From positions 1 through 64,000 of IMG/VR virus record IMGVR_UViG_3300041411_000080: a stretch of 64,000 nucleotides of DNA. One strand, 5' to 3'. Positions 3,333 to 35,299 of this stretch are shown in pieces. The DNA is from a virus. Each line of letters opens with the position of its first letter. Position 1 is the first letter of the stretch. The notes beneath the pieces were generated by a model. It saw nothing but the letters and a program-made list of their open reading frames with translations. It ran no database searches and was not told the DNA's origin. The translations under genes and the position numbers were made by a program.

Positions 3333-4289
3333 TTACACTTCAGCGACTTCACCAACAGTCTCATCTTCAATAGCCAGAGCTGTACCATCATAGACGGTTT
3401 CTTCTTGGGTTTCGAAGGTTGCGTATTCCATGGTCTTGAAGAAGCGCATGTCAGTTGTGTCGATTGCGCTGTTCCAACGAAGGGAAGTGAACGGCAATGG
3501 AGTTTCCATCATGTTCTTCATGTTGATGTTCACATAGCGAACACCTTCCACCACCCAACGATTGCTTTCGTCAAGGTTACTCACAACCCAGTTACCACCA
3601 GCCGGATTCTGGACGTGTACCCATACCAACAGGTTATGCCATTGGATGTTCGGGTGACTACGCATCATCTGCTTGATGTTGATGCGCGCGCCAGTACCGA
3701 CACCGGCTTTAAACATACTTTCACGCTCAGCAGCAATACGACCAGCGTGACTACGGGCGTAGTACTGCCATACACGACGGAACTTATCGACCGCAGTCGG
3801 TTCACCCATTACGGTCAGGCCGTTCAGTGGGGAATTGAAGTGACCGTCCCAGCTTGGGATGTCGTCGCCGGTTGCGTTCCACTGTTCAGCACCTTTACGG
3901 AGCAGTACTTGTGCAGGGCCAGCAACCATTGCCCACGGATCAGGCATCCCACCGTTATCCAGATAGGATTCCAGACGTACGAACTTGCTCTGGTACTTAG
4001 CCAGAATAGCTGCCAGCTCTTGCAGGATGTAGTGCAGGCGAGCGAACTGGTATTGGTTTGTACCCGTATGGCGGATAGGGAATACCAAGGTCAGGTTGCA
4101 ACCATAGCTCTCGTTACCGTTATGGGTAACAGCAGGCTTGACGTGGTCATGGTGATCCATCAGCTCTTTATGAACCGACAGCAGCGCATTGATGTCAGCC
4201 AGCAGATCGATTTCATTTTTGAATGCTTCACGGTCGTTAGCGCCTTGCATGTAAGCGATAGTTACACTAACGGTGTTCGGTTTGGACAT
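3333..4289 (-). CDS. hypothetical phage protein, 318 aa
   Basis: Unrecognised. Contains LTVMGEPTAV followed by an Arg-rich helix (RRVWQYYARSHAGRIAAERE) around residues 155-185, reminiscent of the 1414-2283 product, and ends in an acidic tail (EDETVGEVAEV). GAGGAAAGGTA precedes the ATG. It is isolated between two stem-loops, so it may be a single-gene unit or be read by partial read-through. Confidence 0.87.
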   Translation of the reverse strand: MSKPNTVSVTIAYMQGANDREAFKNEIDLLADINALLSVHKELMDHHDHVKPAVTHNGNESYGCNLTLVFPIRHTGTNQYQFARLHYILQELAAILAKYQSKFVRLESYLDNGGMPDPWAMVAGPAQVLLRKGAEQWNATGDDIPSWDGHFNSPLNGLTVMGEPTAVDKFRRVWQYYARSHAGRIAAERESMFKAGVGTGARINIKQMMRSHPNIQWHNLLVWVHVQNPAGGNWVVSNLDESNRWVVEGVRYVNINMKNMMETPLPFTSLRWNSAIDTTDMRFFKTMEYATFETQEETVYDGTALAIEDETVGEVAEV

Positions 4290-4318
4290 TACCTTTCCTC
4301 GGAATAATTAAGATGGTT

Positions 4319-4334
4319 GGGGAACAGTGTCCCC
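4319..4334 (-). terminator. stem-loop, possible weak terminator
   Basis: GGGGA/TCCCC stem with a six-base loop between two genes; no T-run follows on the minus strand, so it may be a processing or stability hairpin instead. Confidence 0.35.
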
Positions 4335-4337
4335 ATT

Positions 4338-4363
4338 GTATTAGCTTAGCCCGTATTAGCTTA
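4338..4363. repeat. direct repeat of 11 bases
   Basis: GTATTAGCTTA occurs twice, separated by four bases; the right copy overlaps the stop codon of the 4361-4834 gene. Origin and function unknown. Confidence 0.6.
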
Positions 4364-4834
4364 CTTCTGTGGTGGTGCTGCTGGCAAGAAGCTAATGGTT
4401 TGCTGGAGATAGCCCATGTCCTGGAGGTTGAATCGACCTTTATTAACCGGGTTATGTGCAATCTCACCAAATGAAAGAGTCGTGCCACCTGGATTGAGTG
4501 GTTGGCTCGAGACGCTGTTCTTAGTTACTGTGATGATCCAGCCATCGGCAATCACGACAACCGTCACATTGGTCTTACCGATGAAGTCACGAATATGATC
4601 GGCAGTCAGACAGGTTTTATCCTTGAGCTTATGCTCGATCTCCAGCAATGCATCGATGTGACCGATAGCGAAATAAGCTTGTACCTGTGGGCGGTCCCCG
4701 GTCTCGAACAGGTATTCAGAACGCATGCGTGGAGCGCCTTCAGCAGTTCTCAGTGCCTGAATAAAGGTTACATTGTCGTTAGCGCGATAACCGTAAACAA
4801 CACCTTGTGGTACAGCGTGAAGAATGAAAGACAT
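4361..4834 (-). CDS. hypothetical phage protein, 157 aa
   Basis: Unrecognised. Segment AYFAIGHIDALLEIEHKLKD followed by a helix and the strand VTVVVIADG repeats the strand-Gly-helix-helix-strand pattern found in neighbours. The tail is Pro-rich (AAPPQK). Starts ten bases after the 55 aa membrane-protein gene upstream. Confidence 0.85.
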   Translation of the reverse strand: MSFILHAVPQGVVYGYRANDNVTFIQALRTAEGAPRMRSEYLFETGDRPQVQAYFAIGHIDALLEIEHKLKDKTCLTADHIRDFIGKTNVTVVVIADGWIITVTKNSVSSQPLNPGGTTLSFGEIAHNPVNKGRFNLQDMGYLQQTISFLPAAPPQK

Positions 4835-4843
4835 CTTGAATCC

Positions 4844-5011
4844 TTAGCGGTGAATGATCAGAGTAGACCAAGTGGATACGAGTAACAGAATGAGTGCAAC
4901 AGTCAGAACTTCACGACGGGCGGGAGCATGGCTCTTAAAGCACAATGCTAACCAGCCCATCCAAGTAATGATCGTAACAACCCACAACAGTCCGATGAGT
5001 GTAGGGTCCAT
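4844..5011 (-). CDS. small membrane protein, 55 aa, two helices
   Basis: ATG at 5009-5011; reads MDPTLIGLLWVV and then a second hydrophobic stretch VLTVALILLLVS separated by a basic loop (KSHAPARRE). AGGACC stands close upstream. Two transmembrane helices are predicted by eye. It fills an otherwise empty gap in the operon. No family recognised. Confidence 0.72.
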   Translation of the reverse strand: MDPTLIGLLWVVTIITWMGWLALCFKSHAPARREVLTVALILLLVSTWSTLIIHR

Positions 5012-28597: not shown

Positions 28598-28831
28598 TTA
28601 TTTAGGTACGTTTTCTTTATCAAGCCAGTCTGAGATAATTTCATCTGTAACTTCTCGACCTTGCCTGCTGAATAAGGCTTTTACATCGGCAACTGATGCG
28701 AGGATAGGCTCCATACCACTACGGAACTTATCAAGCTGCTTACACTCGTAGTAATACACCCGCTCATCAAGTGTAAGTGGAACACCCTCAGCGATCTTGG
28801 TATCGATCTTAACACGAGTTTCAGTTTTCAT
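28598..28831 (-). CDS. hypothetical phage protein, 77 aa
   Basis: Charged helical protein (ERVYYYECKQLDKFRSGMEP) that starts on the thymidylate synthase stop (TGATG). Coupled expression with that enzyme is likely; function unknown. Confidence 0.8.
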   Translation of the reverse strand: MKTETRVKIDTKIAEGVPLTLDERVYYYECKQLDKFRSGMEPILASVADVKALFSRQGREVTDEIISDWLDKENVPK

Positions 28832-30276
28832 CAAACGGCTACCTTACCGGCGATGTGTGGATGTGATTCATACCCGAGGATAACGAAATCGTCCGGTGTA
28901 ATCTCACGCTGGTCTTTACCATACACTTCGGGCTTGAACAGGATGCGGGGTGTATCGTACGGTTCACGAGTCAGCTGAAGATCAGTTTGTTCCTGATGAT
29001 TCGAATAAATGTGGCAGTCCCCGCCAGTCCAGATGAACTCTTCCGCAGCCATGTTGAACTGGTTAGCGAGTTGGTGAGTCATCAACGAATAGAAGGTGAT
29101 GTTGAACGGCTTACCGAGGAAGGTATCCACCGAACGCTGATACAGATGGCAGCTCAGACCACGGCGTGGTGCCTGTACATTATCAAGCCAACTATGCATG
29201 AACTCTTCAGTGACATCACTTGGCTTATTCAAGGCACACAGACTACTCTTGAAATTTTCCACTGAACGAATCGGTGGCAACCCGCGAGCTGGATCAAATG
29301 CTGCTTGAGCATCTAGTCGGTCTTGATATGCATTGAGGCGTTCTTCCAGATTCAGTTCACGAGTCCAGAACTGGAAGAAGCAGTGGCATGGCGGGAGAGC
29401 CTGATCTTCTACCAGACGTGGGTCCCATGCACAGACGATAATCCGACGGGAGTCAGGACCATTAGCCAGCTGATCCATTACATCTTGCAGTTGGTCAATA
29501 CGACGACGGATAACACATTGGTCAGTCGCAGTATCTGTACCCGGAATGTCTACAACGAAAGTGAAACCACGTTTCTCGTAATCCACCCATTCCAACTTAG
29601 GGATGATACGGACATCATCGATGTTCCGCCACGTCTTACCGTACACTGCACCCAGATCACCACCGATCAAACGTTGTGGTTCGGATTTGAAGAACAGTCG
29701 ATGTAGACGCTTCATGCACTCAAAACCGAAGTTGGTCGCATGGGTAGCATCAGGTGACTCGACTTCTTTCCATTTAACAAGATTAACCTTAACGATCTTC
29801 TTAACGTCTTCACGATCTTTGATGTTAGGGTACTGTGCCCAGAATGCTTCAACTCCTTCAGGACTCAGTTCCGCGAGGAAGCTCTGGATATCCTCAATAG
29901 CGATATCGTTCTCGACGTCGAAGGTAGTGAACACAAGTACCCACTTACCGTCAATGTGCTTATCGATCTTGATGGTAAGATCGTATTCATCCAATGGTGC
30001 GTATTCAGCGGTTTCTGGTTTAACCCATTCGTTCCAGATACGTACACCATTACGGATCAGGTAGTCTACACGAGTATCACCAGAAGACATCCAGATCAGT
30101 TCATGGATTACCGAGTGAAGGTGAATCTTCTTGGTGGTTACCACAGGCAACTTATTGTTACGCAGATCGTAACGTTCGTGTTGACCAAACATGGACTGTG
30201 TGCCAGTACCAGTACGGTCACCTTTAAAGATGCCGAGGTCTTTGATCATTTGAAGCGATTGAAGATACTGATGCAT
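28831..30276 (-). CDS. thyA: thymidylate synthase, enlarged
   Basis: Makes dTMP from dUMP with methylene-tetrahydrofolate. Seen: phosphate-binding DRTGTGTQSMFG (Arg 21), ELIWMSSGDT, GDLGAVYGKTWR (206-217), SRRIIVCAWDP (277-287), active-site Cys 297 in LPPCHCFFQF, LSCHLYQRSVDTFLG and GGDCHIYSNH. All key residues are present, so it should be active. At 481 residues it is almost twice the usual 264; the extra sequence sits mainly at about 85-200 (with the strand-rich KWVLVFTTFD) and 305-370, between conserved blocks and in frame. With dCTP deaminase at 45451 it could form a phage dTTP route. Downstream small gene starts on its stop codon. Confidence 0.95.
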   Translation of the reverse strand: MHQYLQSLQMIKDLGIFKGDRTGTGTQSMFGQHERYDLRNNKLPVVTTKKIHLHSVIHELIWMSSGDTRVDYLIRNGVRIWNEWVKPETAEYAPLDEYDLTIKIDKHIDGKWVLVFTTFDVENDIAIEDIQSFLAELSPEGVEAFWAQYPNIKDREDVKKIVKVNLVKWKEVESPDATHATNFGFECMKRLHRLFFKSEPQRLIGGDLGAVYGKTWRNIDDVRIIPKLEWVDYEKRGFTFVVDIPGTDTATDQCVIRRRIDQLQDVMDQLANGPDSRRIIVCAWDPRLVEDQALPPCHCFFQFWTRELNLEERLNAYQDRLDAQAAFDPARGLPPIRSVENFKSSLCALNKPSDVTEEFMHSWLDNVQAPRRGLSCHLYQRSVDTFLGKPFNITFYSLMTHQLANQFNMAAEEFIWTGGDCHIYSNHQEQTDLQLTREPYDTPRILFKPEVYGKDQREITPDDFVILGYESHPHIAGKVAV

Positions 30277-30318: not shown

Positions 30319-30723
30319 CTATTGGGTAGAACTTAGACCATGGAAACCTGGGATGTTATGCTCTGGTTCAACCATATCCAAATAAGCAATGTCCTGACTG
30401 AGTTCAGTAGACCGAACCCAGCCAAGCATGTCCGCCAGTGAACCCGCCGTAGCTGCACAGTAGATAGCAGCGTAAGGAACGTTAACCACTTTACCCTCTG
30501 GGAAGGTCACAGCAACGTGATCTTCATTTAATACCGTTCTGGTATTACGGGTGATAGAGCCCAAGGCTAGAGACATAACGTCGGCCCCTTCTGCACCGGT
30601 AATCAATGGCAAAACCTCAGGGGCTAATGCCACTGTAATCCAAAGATCCAGTGGATCGGCTATCATTTCCATCCGCTCGATTGCTTCACCAAGGTGTTGC
30701 TTAACAGCTTCGTCACGAGACAT
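30319..30723 (-). CDS. SspB-like protein, short form, 134 aa
   Basis: Residues about 25-100 follow the ClpXP adaptor SspB: strand LWITVALAPEVLP, strand VMSLALGSITRN, strand HVAVTFPEGKVVNVPYAAIY, then AGSLADML. The last parts line up with SspB's 'basic strand - V-P-x-x-A-V' core that binds ssrA-type tags. It lacks SspB's long acidic tail and ClpX-binding end. Next to a longer SspB-like gene, three bases away. Could be an adaptor, an anti-adaptor or a decoy. The assignment rests on pattern reading only. Confidence 0.6.
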   Translation of the reverse strand: MSRDEAVKQHLGEAIERMEMIADPLDLWITVALAPEVLPLITGAEGADVMSLALGSITRNTRTVLNEDHVAVTFPEGKVVNVPYAAIYCAATAGSLADMLGWVRSTELSQDIAYLDMVEPEHNIPGFHGLSSTQ

Positions 30724-30725
30724 AA

Positions 30726-31898
30726 TTATGCTTCCGCCATGGTTGGAACTTTCTTTGGTTTACCGGTGAGCACTTTCAGCCAAGAAGGACGAGCCTTACG
30801 CTTACCCGGCCAAGTGCATTTGGTTACATCCAGATCAGGGAAGAAGCAGCTATTGCCATTAGCCCCATCGGAACGAAGCTCTGGTTGGGTAGACTTCATG
30901 GCATTCGCTATAACGAACTTATCGGTAGGAGCGAGCTTCTCAAGAGCTTCACGACGAGCCAACTTTTCACGATGTACGGTATCGATCCAAGGCATACTGG
31001 CTTGAGGCTTCTGCTTACCGCCTTCGATTACGGTCCAATTACGATCACGCATTTTAGTTTCCAATGTGTCATGGCCGATCATGCGACCCCATTCACCTTG
31101 TGGTTTAAGGTCAACCTTACCGGGAAAGTTAAGGATGGTAGCGTCACCACTGAAAGTAGCATTGCCCTTATCACCGAAATCAACTTTGAAGACGTTGGTA
31201 TCTTCTTTGATTGGACTAGCCAGTATAACCAACTTACCTTCAGAGTCAACTTTGAAACCATCACATTGAATAGACATACCTTGTTTACGCCATGATTCAT
31301 TCAATGCGTCGATTTCTGCTTGGGTTGGAATTGATACCTCAACCGTAGTACCATCAGTCTTAACTACTGATACAGTCGACTCAGGCGTAGCTACGTCAAT
31401 CGCCGCCAACTCTCGGGCTTTGATATCGGCACGGAGAGCAGCCAACTCTTCATCGGTGATCTCATCAATGCTCTCAACATGACCGTTGTTGAAAGTAATG
31501 CGATGTTTACCATTATCCAGTACTTCGACACCAACTGGTTCGATGCCATCTGGAAGATCCAATTCAACATCACCGTAATCTTCGAAGTAAGGGAAGATGT
31601 TAGGGATACCTGTGGTAGGATCTTCAGCAGCATATACTGCGGTGTAAGGAATCTCCAGTTGGATCTCCTTACCTTGACGACGGGACCAGAAACTGAACGA
31701 CTCATCACCGGTAGTGAAGTGACGGGTAGCATTCGCTGAGATGTTCAAACAAATCATCCCAGAGACGGGGTTCATATCCTCGAGGTAGTCCTTTGGATCG
31801 AACTGTGCAGCCTGTACGTAGATGTGCCATTTGGCAGCATTCTCGGTAACGAACCAATCCAGCAATGCTTGAAACGTAACTTTAGCCATGGGTATCAT
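30726..31898 (-). CDS. SspB-like ClpXP adaptor domain with long C-terminal extension
   Basis: Bacterial SspB brings ssrA-tagged proteins to ClpXP. The first 120 residues line up with SspB in order: helix FQALLDWFVTENAAKWHIYV, strand GMICLNISANATRHF, strand FSFWSRRQGKEIQLEIPYTA, and the helix start VYAAEDPTTG with NIFPYF. About 270 further residues (acidic VELDLPDG, a helix, beta segments) are not SspB. Near the end stands ARPSWLKVL, which resembles the RPxLRVV ClpX-binding tail of SspB but is followed by 15 more residues. Start ATG 31896-31898 behind AGGA. A promoter element lies 34 bases upstream, so this heads an operon with the second SspB-like gene and thymidylate synthase. Confidence 0.72.
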   Translation of the reverse strand: MIPMAKVTFQALLDWFVTENAAKWHIYVQAAQFDPKDYLEDMNPVSGMICLNISANATRHFTTGDESFSFWSRRQGKEIQLEIPYTAVYAAEDPTTGIPNIFPYFEDYGDVELDLPDGIEPVGVEVLDNGKHRITFNNGHVESIDEITDEELAALRADIKARELAAIDVATPESTVSVVKTDGTTVEVSIPTQAEIDALNESWRKQGMSIQCDGFKVDSEGKLVILASPIKEDTNVFKVDFGDKGNATFSGDATILNFPGKVDLKPQGEWGRMIGHDTLETKMRDRNWTVIEGGKQKPQASMPWIDTVHREKLARREALEKLAPTDKFVIANAMKSTQPELRSDGANGNSCFFPDLDVTKCTWPGKRKARPSWLKVLTGKPKKVPTMAEA

Positions 31899-31931: not shown

Positions 31932-31957
31932 AATAATATAAATCTCAAATAAAATCT
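31932..31957 (-). promoter_or_regulatory. early-type promoter (P7)
   Basis: TTTATTTGAGATTTATATTA on the minus strand, 34 bases before the SspB-like gene start at 31898. Confidence 0.55.
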
Positions 31958-32201: not shown

Positions 32202-32223
32202 GCTCCTACCCGAAGGTAGGAGC
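32202..32223 (-). terminator. rho-independent terminator, UUCG loop
   Basis: GCTCCTACC-TTCG-GGTAGGAGC then TTTCTTTTATTT on the minus strand. Ends the NAMPT operon. Confidence 0.85.
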
Positions 32224-32232
32224 GATATGCCG

Positions 32233-32637
32233 TTACTGAGGGTTGTAGTCGATGTGACGAGTGGCGTCAATCATATCGAACGCAAGGATGTTAGTAATCT
32301 TACCTGCGGTGGTTTCGTGTTTACGAACCGAGATAGAGAACTCCTTGTGTTTAGGTTCTGTTTGGAGACGCACGAAAGTTTCTGCGAATGGACCGTAAGG
32401 TTCACAAGTAAAACTGACGCTATCCTCAGACCAGACTGGATTGATCAACCGGCAACATACGCGATCCATGTTAACTTCACGCATACGTCGGAACCACCAA
32501 GTGATATCCAGATCCCCACGGATAGGGGAACCGAACTCACAATACACTCCATCCTTAACACATGGCTGCTTAAGGAATTCCTCAAGTGCAATGCGAAAGG
32601 CGGGAGACTTACGGGTCAAATCGATTTCGTAATGCAT
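32233..32637 (-). CDS. hypothetical phage protein, 134 aa, NAMPT operon
   Basis: ATG 32635-32637 behind GGGG, next to the NAMPT-like stop codon. Beta-rich body (VYCEFGSPIRGDLDITWWFR, KEFSISVRKHETTAG). Third gene of the PRPP synthetase - NAMPT transcript, before the terminator, so a role in the same process is possible. No family recognised. Confidence 0.82.
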   Translation of the reverse strand: MHYEIDLTRKSPAFRIALEEFLKQPCVKDGVYCEFGSPIRGDLDITWWFRRMREVNMDRVCCRLINPVWSEDSVSFTCEPYGPFAETFVRLQTEPKHKEFSISVRKHETTAGKITNILAFDMIDATRHIDYNPQ

Positions 32638-32638
32638 A

Positions 32639-34375
32639 TTACCCCAGCATGGCTCGTTCACGGACTTGAGCGAAAGTTACTTCATTAGGGAACTTGCCAT
32701 CTTTGAAGATGACTTTCAGTTCACCCGAGGAAGTATCGATCTCATCAATCCCGAAAGTTTGGTTCTGTTGCAGAACGTAGTCACCTGCTTCATCACGGAC
32801 AACCTTCAGGAAACCTTTAGCCGATTTCTTGTTGGTTTCACCTTCGGTCTTAGGTGCTTTGAACAGTTCAACGAACAGGTCGTCTACTTGAACAGCGGTA
32901 GCTTTAACCGCAAAGCCGAAAGTGTCACGGGTGTTGTGCTGATAGGTGTAAGAACCGATACCCAGTACCCAGTTAGACGATGCAAAGCCTTTCTTCATCA
33001 GGCGACGCATGATCTCTTCGGTACGGGCTACAGTGATCGAGTCACCATAGATCAAGCCGATACGTTCGTGGAGAACTTTGAAGCCTTTCTCGTTGATAGT
33101 ACCACCGAAGGTTTCCCACAGCAGTTCAACTGCACCACGTTGTTCAGGAGTCAGTTCAACAGGAACGTATTCGTACCCATCGCGCTCCAATACAACCTTG
33201 CGGATCTGACCATCGACACTGACGTATTTACCAGTGATAGATTTACCTGCATGAATCATGTCCGAGATTTCAGACACGGTGAAGATCTCAGCGCCACAGA
33301 TTACTTCTACAGGATCACCCGAGTCAGGACGAACCACAACTTTAGCCAGACCGTTAGCATCCGGTTGACGACCGAGGATCTCAGCCTTAATGGATGGGAA
33401 GACGTTGGTCAGAACACCCCAGAAGTCAAAGCTGTCCGATACCAGAGAGATGATCCCTTTAGGTACCTTAACAGTAATGGCTTCAATGATGAACTCACGT
33501 TCTGCTTCCAGCTTCAGGGTATTGAGTTCGTCAGCAGTAAAGTCTGCTTCGGTCTTACCCAGCTCCTTCAGCTTAACAGCCAGACGGTACAGGATGTTCG
33601 AAGTGGCGACGGCGTGTTCGGTAGCTACTACGGAAGCGGCCAGGAACTCTTTGTCAGCATCTGCAAAGTACATGTCTTCAACGAAGTCAATCGCTGGCAG
33701 AGTGTCAGTACCTTTGAAGAACACCAAGTGACCAGCGTTCGAGAATGCAGCTGCTTGTGGGTTGTTGATACCACGCAGTGCAAAGTCGTGACCTTGGAAG
33801 TCAACACCTTCGATTGGAGAACCAGTCAGGTGTGCGAAGTGTTCCAGTACACGGCGATACTCGTAAGCGATGGTGGTGTTGCAGACCATAGCCCAGATCA
33901 ACGAGGACATGAAGGTTTCGAGATAGTTCACAACCCAGTAGAACTCAGGGAGCGTATTGTAGATCACGTAACCCGGAACGTTCATGTTCAGGCGGGAACC
34001 TTCTGGTACCGACAGTACAGTAATAGGCAGGTAACCCAGATCGTGCAGAGCAGCCATGGCTTCGATGTCAACCATACCTTCACCGAGGTAAGTATCCATA
34101 CGACGCTTGTAACGACGGATCACAGTGGCCTTGTCTTTCTTGAAGAAACTGGCATCCCAGATACCGGCAACTTCACGCATTACGGCTTGGATACCAAACC
34201 AAACAACTTTGTGGTCCCAGAACATCGATTGGGACTTAGAACCCAGGAACAAGCGGTCAGCACGTGGAGTACCGTTACCGTAAGCGAAGTTAGTGCCGTA
34301 TGGATACAGAGGACCGTGCCCCATTTTGTAACCATCAGCTACGGTTGGACCAAACAGTTGAAAGTTAGTAGACAT
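32639..34375 (-). CDS. nicotinamide phosphoribosyltransferase-like (NAMPT/Namat type)
   Basis: NAMPT joins nicotinamide to PRPP to give NMN. Seen in order: HDFALRGINNPQAAAFSNAG (PRPP/nicotinamide pocket), HLVFFKGTDTLPAI, VVATEHAVATS, LVSDSFDFWGV, VVVRPDSGDP and IYGDSITV, which match the family blocks. Length 578 against about 490 in the human enzyme. It follows a PRPP-synthetase-like gene by nine bases. In the phage NAD+ reconstitution route NARP1, proteins annotated as this pair (Adps and Namat) instead make ADP-ribose-pyrophosphate and join it to nicotinamide; sequence reading alone cannot tell which substrate is used here. Expected role: restoring NAD+ for LigA and against NADase defences. 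Confidence 0.92.
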   Translation of the reverse strand: MSTNFQLFGPTVADGYKMGHGPLYPYGTNFAYGNGTPRADRLFLGSKSQSMFWDHKVVWFGIQAVMREVAGIWDASFFKKDKATVIRRYKRRMDTYLGEGMVDIEAMAALHDLGYLPITVLSVPEGSRLNMNVPGYVIYNTLPEFYWVVNYLETFMSSLIWAMVCNTTIAYEYRRVLEHFAHLTGSPIEGVDFQGHDFALRGINNPQAAAFSNAGHLVFFKGTDTLPAIDFVEDMYFADADKEFLAASVVATEHAVATSNILYRLAVKLKELGKTEADFTADELNTLKLEAEREFIIEAITVKVPKGIISLVSDSFDFWGVLTNVFPSIKAEILGRQPDANGLAKVVVRPDSGDPVEVICGAEIFTVSEISDMIHAGKSITGKYVSVDGQIRKVVLERDGYEYVPVELTPEQRGAVELLWETFGGTINEKGFKVLHERIGLIYGDSITVARTEEIMRRLMKKGFASSNWVLGIGSYTYQHNTRDTFGFAVKATAVQVDDLFVELFKAPKTEGETNKKSAKGFLKVVRDEAGDYVLQQNQTFGIDEIDTSSGELKVIFKDGKFPNEVTFAQVRERAMLG

Positions 34376-34384
34376 GTAGTTTCC

Positions 34385-35266
34385 TTAGATGGCAAGCCAA
34401 TTCATTTTTGGATTTACGAGACCGTTACCGTCAGTGTTGCCGGTAGCAGTAGGTTGGAACGAGTTGGTGGTAGTAACACGATCGAAGAGTTCGGTTACAA
34501 CTTCAGTACCGTAGCTGAAGATACCGTGAGTAACCCAGAGTTCAAGACTCAGAGGTTCGTATTCACGGATAGCTTTAGCCAGAGCAATAAAGGTACGACC
34601 ACCGTCACAGATGTCATCGACTACGAGCAGACGCTTGTTACCCACATGGGCATCAAAGCGAGTACCGGTGATTTCCATGGTTTCCAGATCACGATCTTTA
34701 GTAGCGCAGATGTAACCTGCTGCACCCAGTTCGGTAGCCAGTGCTTTAACGCGTTTCTGCGCACCAGCATCTGGAGCTACCAAATAGACTTCACTGAAAT
34801 CCATGTTACCGTAATAGGTATCACGACGCATGACATCCGCCAGAGGACGTACAACCGAACGCTTGATCAGCGCCGGAGTAACGTCACTGTGTGGGTCAAG
34901 CAAAGTCACTTTAGTGAAAGCCAGACGGTTGATTACGTCAGCAAACACTGCAATGCCATTTGCTTCACCCGGATTGCATACTCGGTCTTGCCGAGCGTAC
35001 GGCGTGTAACCCATCTCCAGAGCGACAGGCATGTCGGGATCGATACGACGGATCGCATCTACTACCAGCATCAGTTCAAAGCAAGTATCTGCCGAGTTGA
35101 GGTATGTCTTAAGTACAATCTCAGAAGCTGTGTCAATCCGTTCACGTACAGGTTGTGGAAGGCGAGGGTTTACCTCACCTCCTTTGAAGACTGGAGCTGA
35201 ACTGTTAATCCAGCTAGTACGGATGGTTTGACCCGCTTCGTGACGAACCAATTGAATTTCAATCAT
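34385..35266 (-). CDS. ribose-phosphate pyrophosphokinase-like (Prs/Adps type)
   Basis: PRPP synthetase transfers pyrophosphate from ATP to ribose 5-phosphate. Visible: GYTPYARQDR (86-95), LLDPHSDV (ribose/Mg region), and the PRPP loop VVDDICDGGRTF (about 217-228; the usual form is V-D-D-x-x-D-T-G-G-T). Length 293 fits the family. Start at ATG 35264-35266 with AAGG upstream. A promoter element lies 34 bases away, so it leads a three-gene transcript with the NAMPT-like enzyme. The NARP1 enzyme Adps, which acts on ADP-ribose, belongs to this family and is the main alternative. Confidence 0.92.
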   Translation of the reverse strand: MIEIQLVRHEAGQTIRTSWINSSAPVFKGGEVNPRLPQPVRERIDTASEIVLKTYLNSADTCFELMLVVDAIRRIDPDMPVALEMGYTPYARQDRVCNPGEANGIAVFADVINRLAFTKVTLLDPHSDVTPALIKRSVVRPLADVMRRDTYYGNMDFSEVYLVAPDAGAQKRVKALATELGAAGYICATKDRDLETMEITGTRFDAHVGNKRLLVVDDICDGGRTFIALAKAIREYEPLSLELWVTHGIFSYGTEVVTELFDRVTTTNSFQPTATGNTDGNGLVNPKMNWLAI

Positions 35267-35299
35267 GATCGATACCTTGGTTAGATTCATTACACCACA

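Follow-up and report, generated by a model that had tools for sequence, protein, structure and literature searches.

The locus studied here raises the question of whether a phage can bring an SspB-type adaptor of its own to the ClpXP protease of its host, and what a second, smaller protein encoded directly beside that adaptor would contribute. The window, the whole stretch of 64,000 nucleotides that was analysed, is the start of a virus record of 320,858 bases. On the basis of its chimallin gene (positions 241410-243302 of the record), the product of which is 66% identical to 201phi2-1 gp105 over the full length, this virus can be placed among the nucleus-forming Pseudomonas phages; at 309979-310524 the same record carries genes for three tRNAs (Tyr, Asn, Trp). 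An earlier note on this DNA had described two adjacent SspB-like proteins, the longer one with an extension and a tail resembling that by which SspB binds ClpX, the shorter one without such a tail, and had let both share an early promoter with thymidylate synthase. The two open reading frames (ORFs) are indeed present on the minus strand, a long one of 390 aa at 30726-31898, orthologous to 201phi2-1 gp347, phiKZ gp232 and PhiPA3 gp270, and a short one of 134 aa at 30319-30723, orthologous to 201phi2-1 gp349, with 2 bases between the stop codon of the former and the ATG of the latter. The minus-strand gene order leads from an S80-like protein through a 72-aa ORF, the long ORF and the short ORF to thymidylate synthase (28831-30276, minus strand; PF00303, E 3e-84), the conserved downstream neighbour. 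A 142-aa ORF at 32233-32661 (minus strand) matches the head maturation protease family phrog_7478 (E 4e-13) and, weakly, Peptidase_S80, and the Viktualia neighbourhood likewise has a gene annotated as head maturation protease. At 32639-35290 (minus strand) a nicotinamide phosphoribosyltransferase-type gene is accompanied by a neighbour at the place that ribose-phosphate pyrophosphokinase takes in the relatives, and these genes are probably a phage NAD-salvage pair adjoining the adaptor.

The proposed early promoter shared with thymidylate synthase found no support. A terminator-like hairpin that would end the upstream transcript (9-pair stem, then a T-rich tail) lies at 32202-32223 on the minus strand and is followed by TTTATATTAT (31933-31942, minus strand), which precedes the long ORF by 35-44 bases and is an AT-rich stretch tentatively resembling a phiKZ-type early promoter; the window contains no more matches of this type than chance would give, and a sigma-70-like site was not found in this upstream region. 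Spacing alone makes co-transcription with thymidylate synthase plausible.

The SspB core ascribed to the long protein was recovered by sequence, profile and fold comparison. Its N-terminal domain (residues ~1-106; 31581-31898, minus strand) matches PF04386 over residues 9-102 with an E value of 1.4e-4 (22.3 bits, below the curated cut-off of 27), the PHROGs family phrog_8945, 'stringent starvation protein Sspb-like' (E 2.6e-6), eight NCBIfam models named 'ClpXP protease specificity-enhancing factor' (best 1.3e-7) and SspB of H. influenzae (E 0.0026). While this single-sequence evidence is moderate, that at the family level is strong, since a PDB-wide search with a profile of seven Pseudomonas-phage members, from which the obviously SspB-like RAY protein had been left out, retrieved SspB only (ten distinct sequences, ~2e-14 to 2e-12). 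As regards a peptide-binding groove for ssrA or RseA-type peptides, which the long protein may have, the LN[IL] strand region is retained at the sequence level and adjacent positions vary. The predicted structure has a pLDDT of 50 overall, with blocks of ~51-80 across residues 1-100 and a helix at residues 4-19; in SspB the N-terminal helix mediates homodimerization. When this model was compared with the PDB by Foldseek, the N-terminal ~105 residues matched SspB-type structures in the first 19 matches, all of them SspB or alpha-proteobacterial SspB-type proteins (TM to target ~0.5-0.7), after which the probability falls sharply; the matches include 8et3_Y, the SspB that delivers an ssrA-tagged substrate to ClpXP. 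Sequence and predicted fold together identify the first ~105 residues of the long protein as genuinely homologous to SspB.

The ClpX-tail-like motif claimed for the end of the long protein is also present, as RPSWLKVL at residues 370-377 (30768-30791, minus strand), and its core is common to the C-termini of all relatives read. The pattern P-x(1,2)-[LVMW]-x-[VL]-[VIH] ends all 17 relatives and is like RPALRVVK of E. coli, an established ClpX-binding module. Among bacterial SspBs, Salmonella ends in RPALRVVK and Acinetobacter in KPTLRILD, and similar ends were found in the phages pf16 (KPTLRVVK), NCTB (KPTLSVVK), RAY (KPTLTVVK) and AH06 (GPSLSIVK). The remaining C-termini read are those of PhiPA3 (KPTLTLIKGGKK), PS119XW (KPKLTVIKGGKK), phiKZ (TPKLTVIKGGKK), D6 (PPHLRVIQGGKA), RVTF4 (APHLTVIQGGKA), Psa21 (GPNLTLIQGGKK), Phabio (RPSWMTVIDGGK), Viktualia (RPTWVSVIEGGKRD), 201phi2-1 (RPEWLQVHEGGLK) and the window phage (RPSWLKVLTGKPKKVPTMAEA). 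The window motif has one extra residue, in common with 201phi2-1, Viktualia and Phabio, and is followed by 13 residues, whereas in bacterial SspB it is the very end. A strict RPx[L..]xVV pattern misses the window tail on account of this inserted residue, and the pattern was therefore relaxed to admit one or two residues. Within the last 30 residues, this loose core occurs in 15 of the 446 predicted proteins of the window phage (3.4%), and followed by x-G in the long protein only; the pattern was chosen with the family tails already in view, which makes this rarity descriptive, and related sequences do not count as independent trials. The measured linkers between domain and tail span ~30 to 276 residues, and a tether would be expected to keep such a short end motif even as the intervening sequence diverges. 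The conserved tail is the strongest point, and a new one, in favour of a ClpX adaptor, and on the level of sequence it strengthens this reading.

Equally in agreement with the earlier description, the SspB domain and the tail lie ~276 residues apart, compared to 37-63 in two bacterial SspBs measured. Much of this extension is predicted with a pLDDT below 50, and residues 171-230 (31209-31388, minus strand; pLDDT ~60-69) may fold as a small beta-beta-alpha-beta-beta unit, for which no family match was found and much of which is absent in Viktualia. An internal block, WTVIEGGKQKPQASMPWID (residues 288-306; 30981-31037, minus strand), is conserved in 201phi2-1 and Viktualia with the clade pattern VIxGG...ASMP[FW]ID; its VIEGGK resembles the tails of relatives, and the block may be functional. 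A second short motif, NSCFFPDLDV (residues 349-358; 30825-30854, minus strand), corresponds in the sequence comparison to NS[CV][FY]FPDLDV shortly before the tail in the 201phi2-1 clade, while other clades have PLLDFG-like motifs (PLLDFG-x-[LV]) there. The extension may be more than a linker. It would act as a long, variable leash between the SspB domain and the tail and may carry further binding motifs.

Homologues of the long protein are encoded near nicotinamide phosphoribosyltransferase and/or thymidylate synthase in Viktualia, 201phi2-1, Psa21, D6, phiKZ, PhiPA3, Phabio and PS119XW, with thymidylate synthase near the sspB-like gene in 201phi2-1, Viktualia, PhiPA3, phiKZ, Phabio and PS119XW; RVTF4 also has one sspB-like homologue. 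By sequence comparison the sspB-like gene is an old, conserved phage gene. The identification as SspB is not in itself new, since the homologues of 201phi2-1 (gp347), Viktualia, RVTF4 and Churi are already annotated as such. In IMG/VR, neither the long protein by itself nor the PS119XW protein found relatives as a query, and narrower queries retrieved 201phi2-1, phiKZ-type and Psa21-type loci. The family of 201phi2-1 gp347, phiKZ gp232 and PhiPA3 gp270 shares with the window protein homologous sequence, a similar neighbourhood and the same tail, although identity is at most ~30% and the extensions are clade-specific. In PhiPA3 the gene next after the sspB-like one, gp271 (4108-4860 of the locus), has an annotation that names similarity to the macro domain of macroH2A. 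Like the window protein, bacterial SspB (PF04386) consists of an N-terminal SspB domain, an extension and a basic, P-x-L-x-V-V-like C-terminal tail, but it has neither the inserted residue nor the further C-terminal residues, and the window gene lies between the NAD-salvage genes and thymidylate synthase rather than beside sspA. Two phage proteins from the literature are closer to the bacterial type. Erwinia phage RAY gp39, called a 'putative SspB-like ClpXP adaptor' and found to be cytoplasmic (PMC10299810), has the SspB domain and a tail, KKPTLTVVK, but is only 150 aa long with a short linker, is close to bacterial SspB and has no tailless neighbour described. Similarly, gp18 of Pseudomonas phage pf16 is a phage-encoded SspB with the tail KKPTLRVVK, but it comes from a T4-related phage, has 128 aa and a near-bacterial sequence, and was proposed to act on RseA/RpoE (PMC5587285). 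An SspB-like protein of phage NCTB (1414-1761 of the locus) is annotated as hypothetical; it has the tail KKPTLSVVK and a thymidylate synthase gene close by.

For the short protein the suggested relationship to SspB stood in part: no significant sequence match to SspB was obtained in Pfam, NCBIfam or the PDB, while profile-profile comparison and predicted fold agree with it. When a profile of the short family, which has orthologues in 201phi2-1 (gp349) and Viktualia, was aligned by hhalign with the SspB set, the p value was 0.0033 for the phage set and decreased to 0.00061 with bacterial SspB added. None of 200 column shuffles reached the score of 29.4 (highest 20.2), the reversed comparison gave 11.4, and seven further proteins encoded at these loci stayed at or below 19.8; single sequences of the short family, used without a profile, scored no better than the controls. 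For the predicted model (pLDDT 69, pTM 0.66), the two best fold matches in the PDB are SspB-type structures (E 0.02 and 0.09; probability 0.99 and 0.98; TM 0.42-0.53), and a viral SspB is among its better fold matches in BFVD. Distant relatives, phiKZ gp236 and one PS119XW protein, are encoded across thymidylate synthase, on its other side. This evidence from sequence profiles and predicted models is weak but concordant, and the short protein is probably a very divergent relative with the SspB fold. As the earlier note had stated, it is without the ClpX tail: the XB tail is absent from its end, ...HNIPGFHGLSSTQ, and also from the orthologues read. A tailless protein of this kind could not itself tether ClpX. 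It may share the cargo of the long protein or form a pair with it; that it serves as an inhibitor is a guess.

The long protein, with its SspB homology and SspB fold, its conserved tail and its conserved neighbourhood, is in our view rather likely to be a phage-encoded SspB-type tethering adaptor that supplies host ClpXP with cargo in the cytoplasm. Its binding to ClpX, its cargo and its direction of action (delivery, or competition with host SspB) are what we infer. The N-terminal SspB domain would bind a cargo protein or tag, and the basic C-terminal tail, judged from motif conservation, would dock on the zinc-binding N-domain of host ClpX as RPALRVVK of E. coli does. Consistent with such a role, the XB tail peptide RGGRPALRVVK of E. 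coli attaches to the N-domain of ClpX, where it blocks access for other clients (PMC3983244), and the Kd of P. aeruginosa SspB for ClpX rises from 27 nM to 179 nM once alanine replaces residues R128-K135 (PMC13251409). A search for AAA_2 unfoldases (ClpX/HslU type) in the window phage and six relatives gave none, so that a phage ClpX/HslU was rejected as the adaptor's partner and host ClpX would be the natural one. Together with the cytoplasmic RAY gp39, this makes it most likely that host ClpXP would be redirected in the cytoplasm, towards host proteins or surplus phage proteins. Several observations speak against this reading: neither ssrA-like tags in phage proteins nor a phage tmRNA were found in the window phage, the Pfam score is below its cut-off, the tail has an inserted residue and is not at the very end, and the model of the full protein is of low confidence.

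Rather unlikely, though deserving weight, is a role as competitor, in which the tail occupies the ClpX N-domain, or the SspB domain occupies host cargo, and host SspB or other adaptors are displaced, so that tagged or vulnerable phage proteins are protected or MucA/AlgU signalling is changed. The XB tail peptide alone inhibits SspB-stimulated degradation and also that of FtsZ and lambda O (PMC3983244), competition with the host's SspB over RseA has been suggested for the SspB of pf16 (PMC5587285), and a tailless neighbour with the SspB fold would fit a blocking system. However, cargo domain and tail have been kept together over great divergence, while a pure competitor needs only one of them, and this joint retention favours delivery over competition.

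It is improbable, to our mind, that the SspB fold has been repurposed, with domain and tail binding other partners, for instance phage proteins on the surface of the shell, while the resemblance of the tail to XB is retained for a different partner. The extension carries additional conserved motifs, and many phage tails have a GGK ending that was absent from both bacterial SspB tails read; however, the tails of RAY, pf16 and NCTB are essentially those of bacterial SspB and form a graded series with the GGK tails. The localization of phiKZ gp232 bears on both readings. This protein is one of six that are enriched in the phage-shell fraction and absent from virions (PMC10449902), which agrees with a repurposed fold and counts against a purely cytoplasmic adaptor, with which it does not sit simply. 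Against a partner at the shell, most of the six overexpressed candidates, gp232 being among those expressed, were diffuse outside the phage shell (PMC10449902), and enrichment and diffuse localization together fit a protein of the cytoplasm with possible contact to the shell. An adaptor for a phage AAA+ machine of the BCS1/FtsH-like type is very improbable, because the gene for such a protein two genes downstream of the sspB-like gene in Psa21, D6 and RVTF4, and its distant relatives in phiKZ, PhiPA3 and PS119XW, have no relative found in the window phage, Viktualia, 201phi2-1 or Phabio, all four of which have the adaptor with its tail, and a BCS1-like partner was accordingly rejected for the window phage.

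In summary, the analysis bears out the core observation of SspB-like neighbours for the long protein, makes it probable for the short one and lends no support to the promoter. Nucleus-forming phages leave many of their own proteins, as well as those of the host, exposed in the cytoplasm, and if a conserved phage adaptor of the type discussed here steers host ClpXP, then protein turnover would be under phage control in addition to transcription and translation. With gp232 of phiKZ, a member of this adaptor family is present in a well-studied laboratory phage. What is unusual at the present locus is the long extension of the adaptor and, alongside it, a possible tailless partner. The two could conceivably constitute a proteolysis switch, in which the long adaptor would deliver proteins to host ClpXP and the short one, by pairing with it or sharing its cargo, would block delivery; we consider this improbable, but if it were true, a nucleus-forming phage would decide which cytoplasmic proteins are destroyed.
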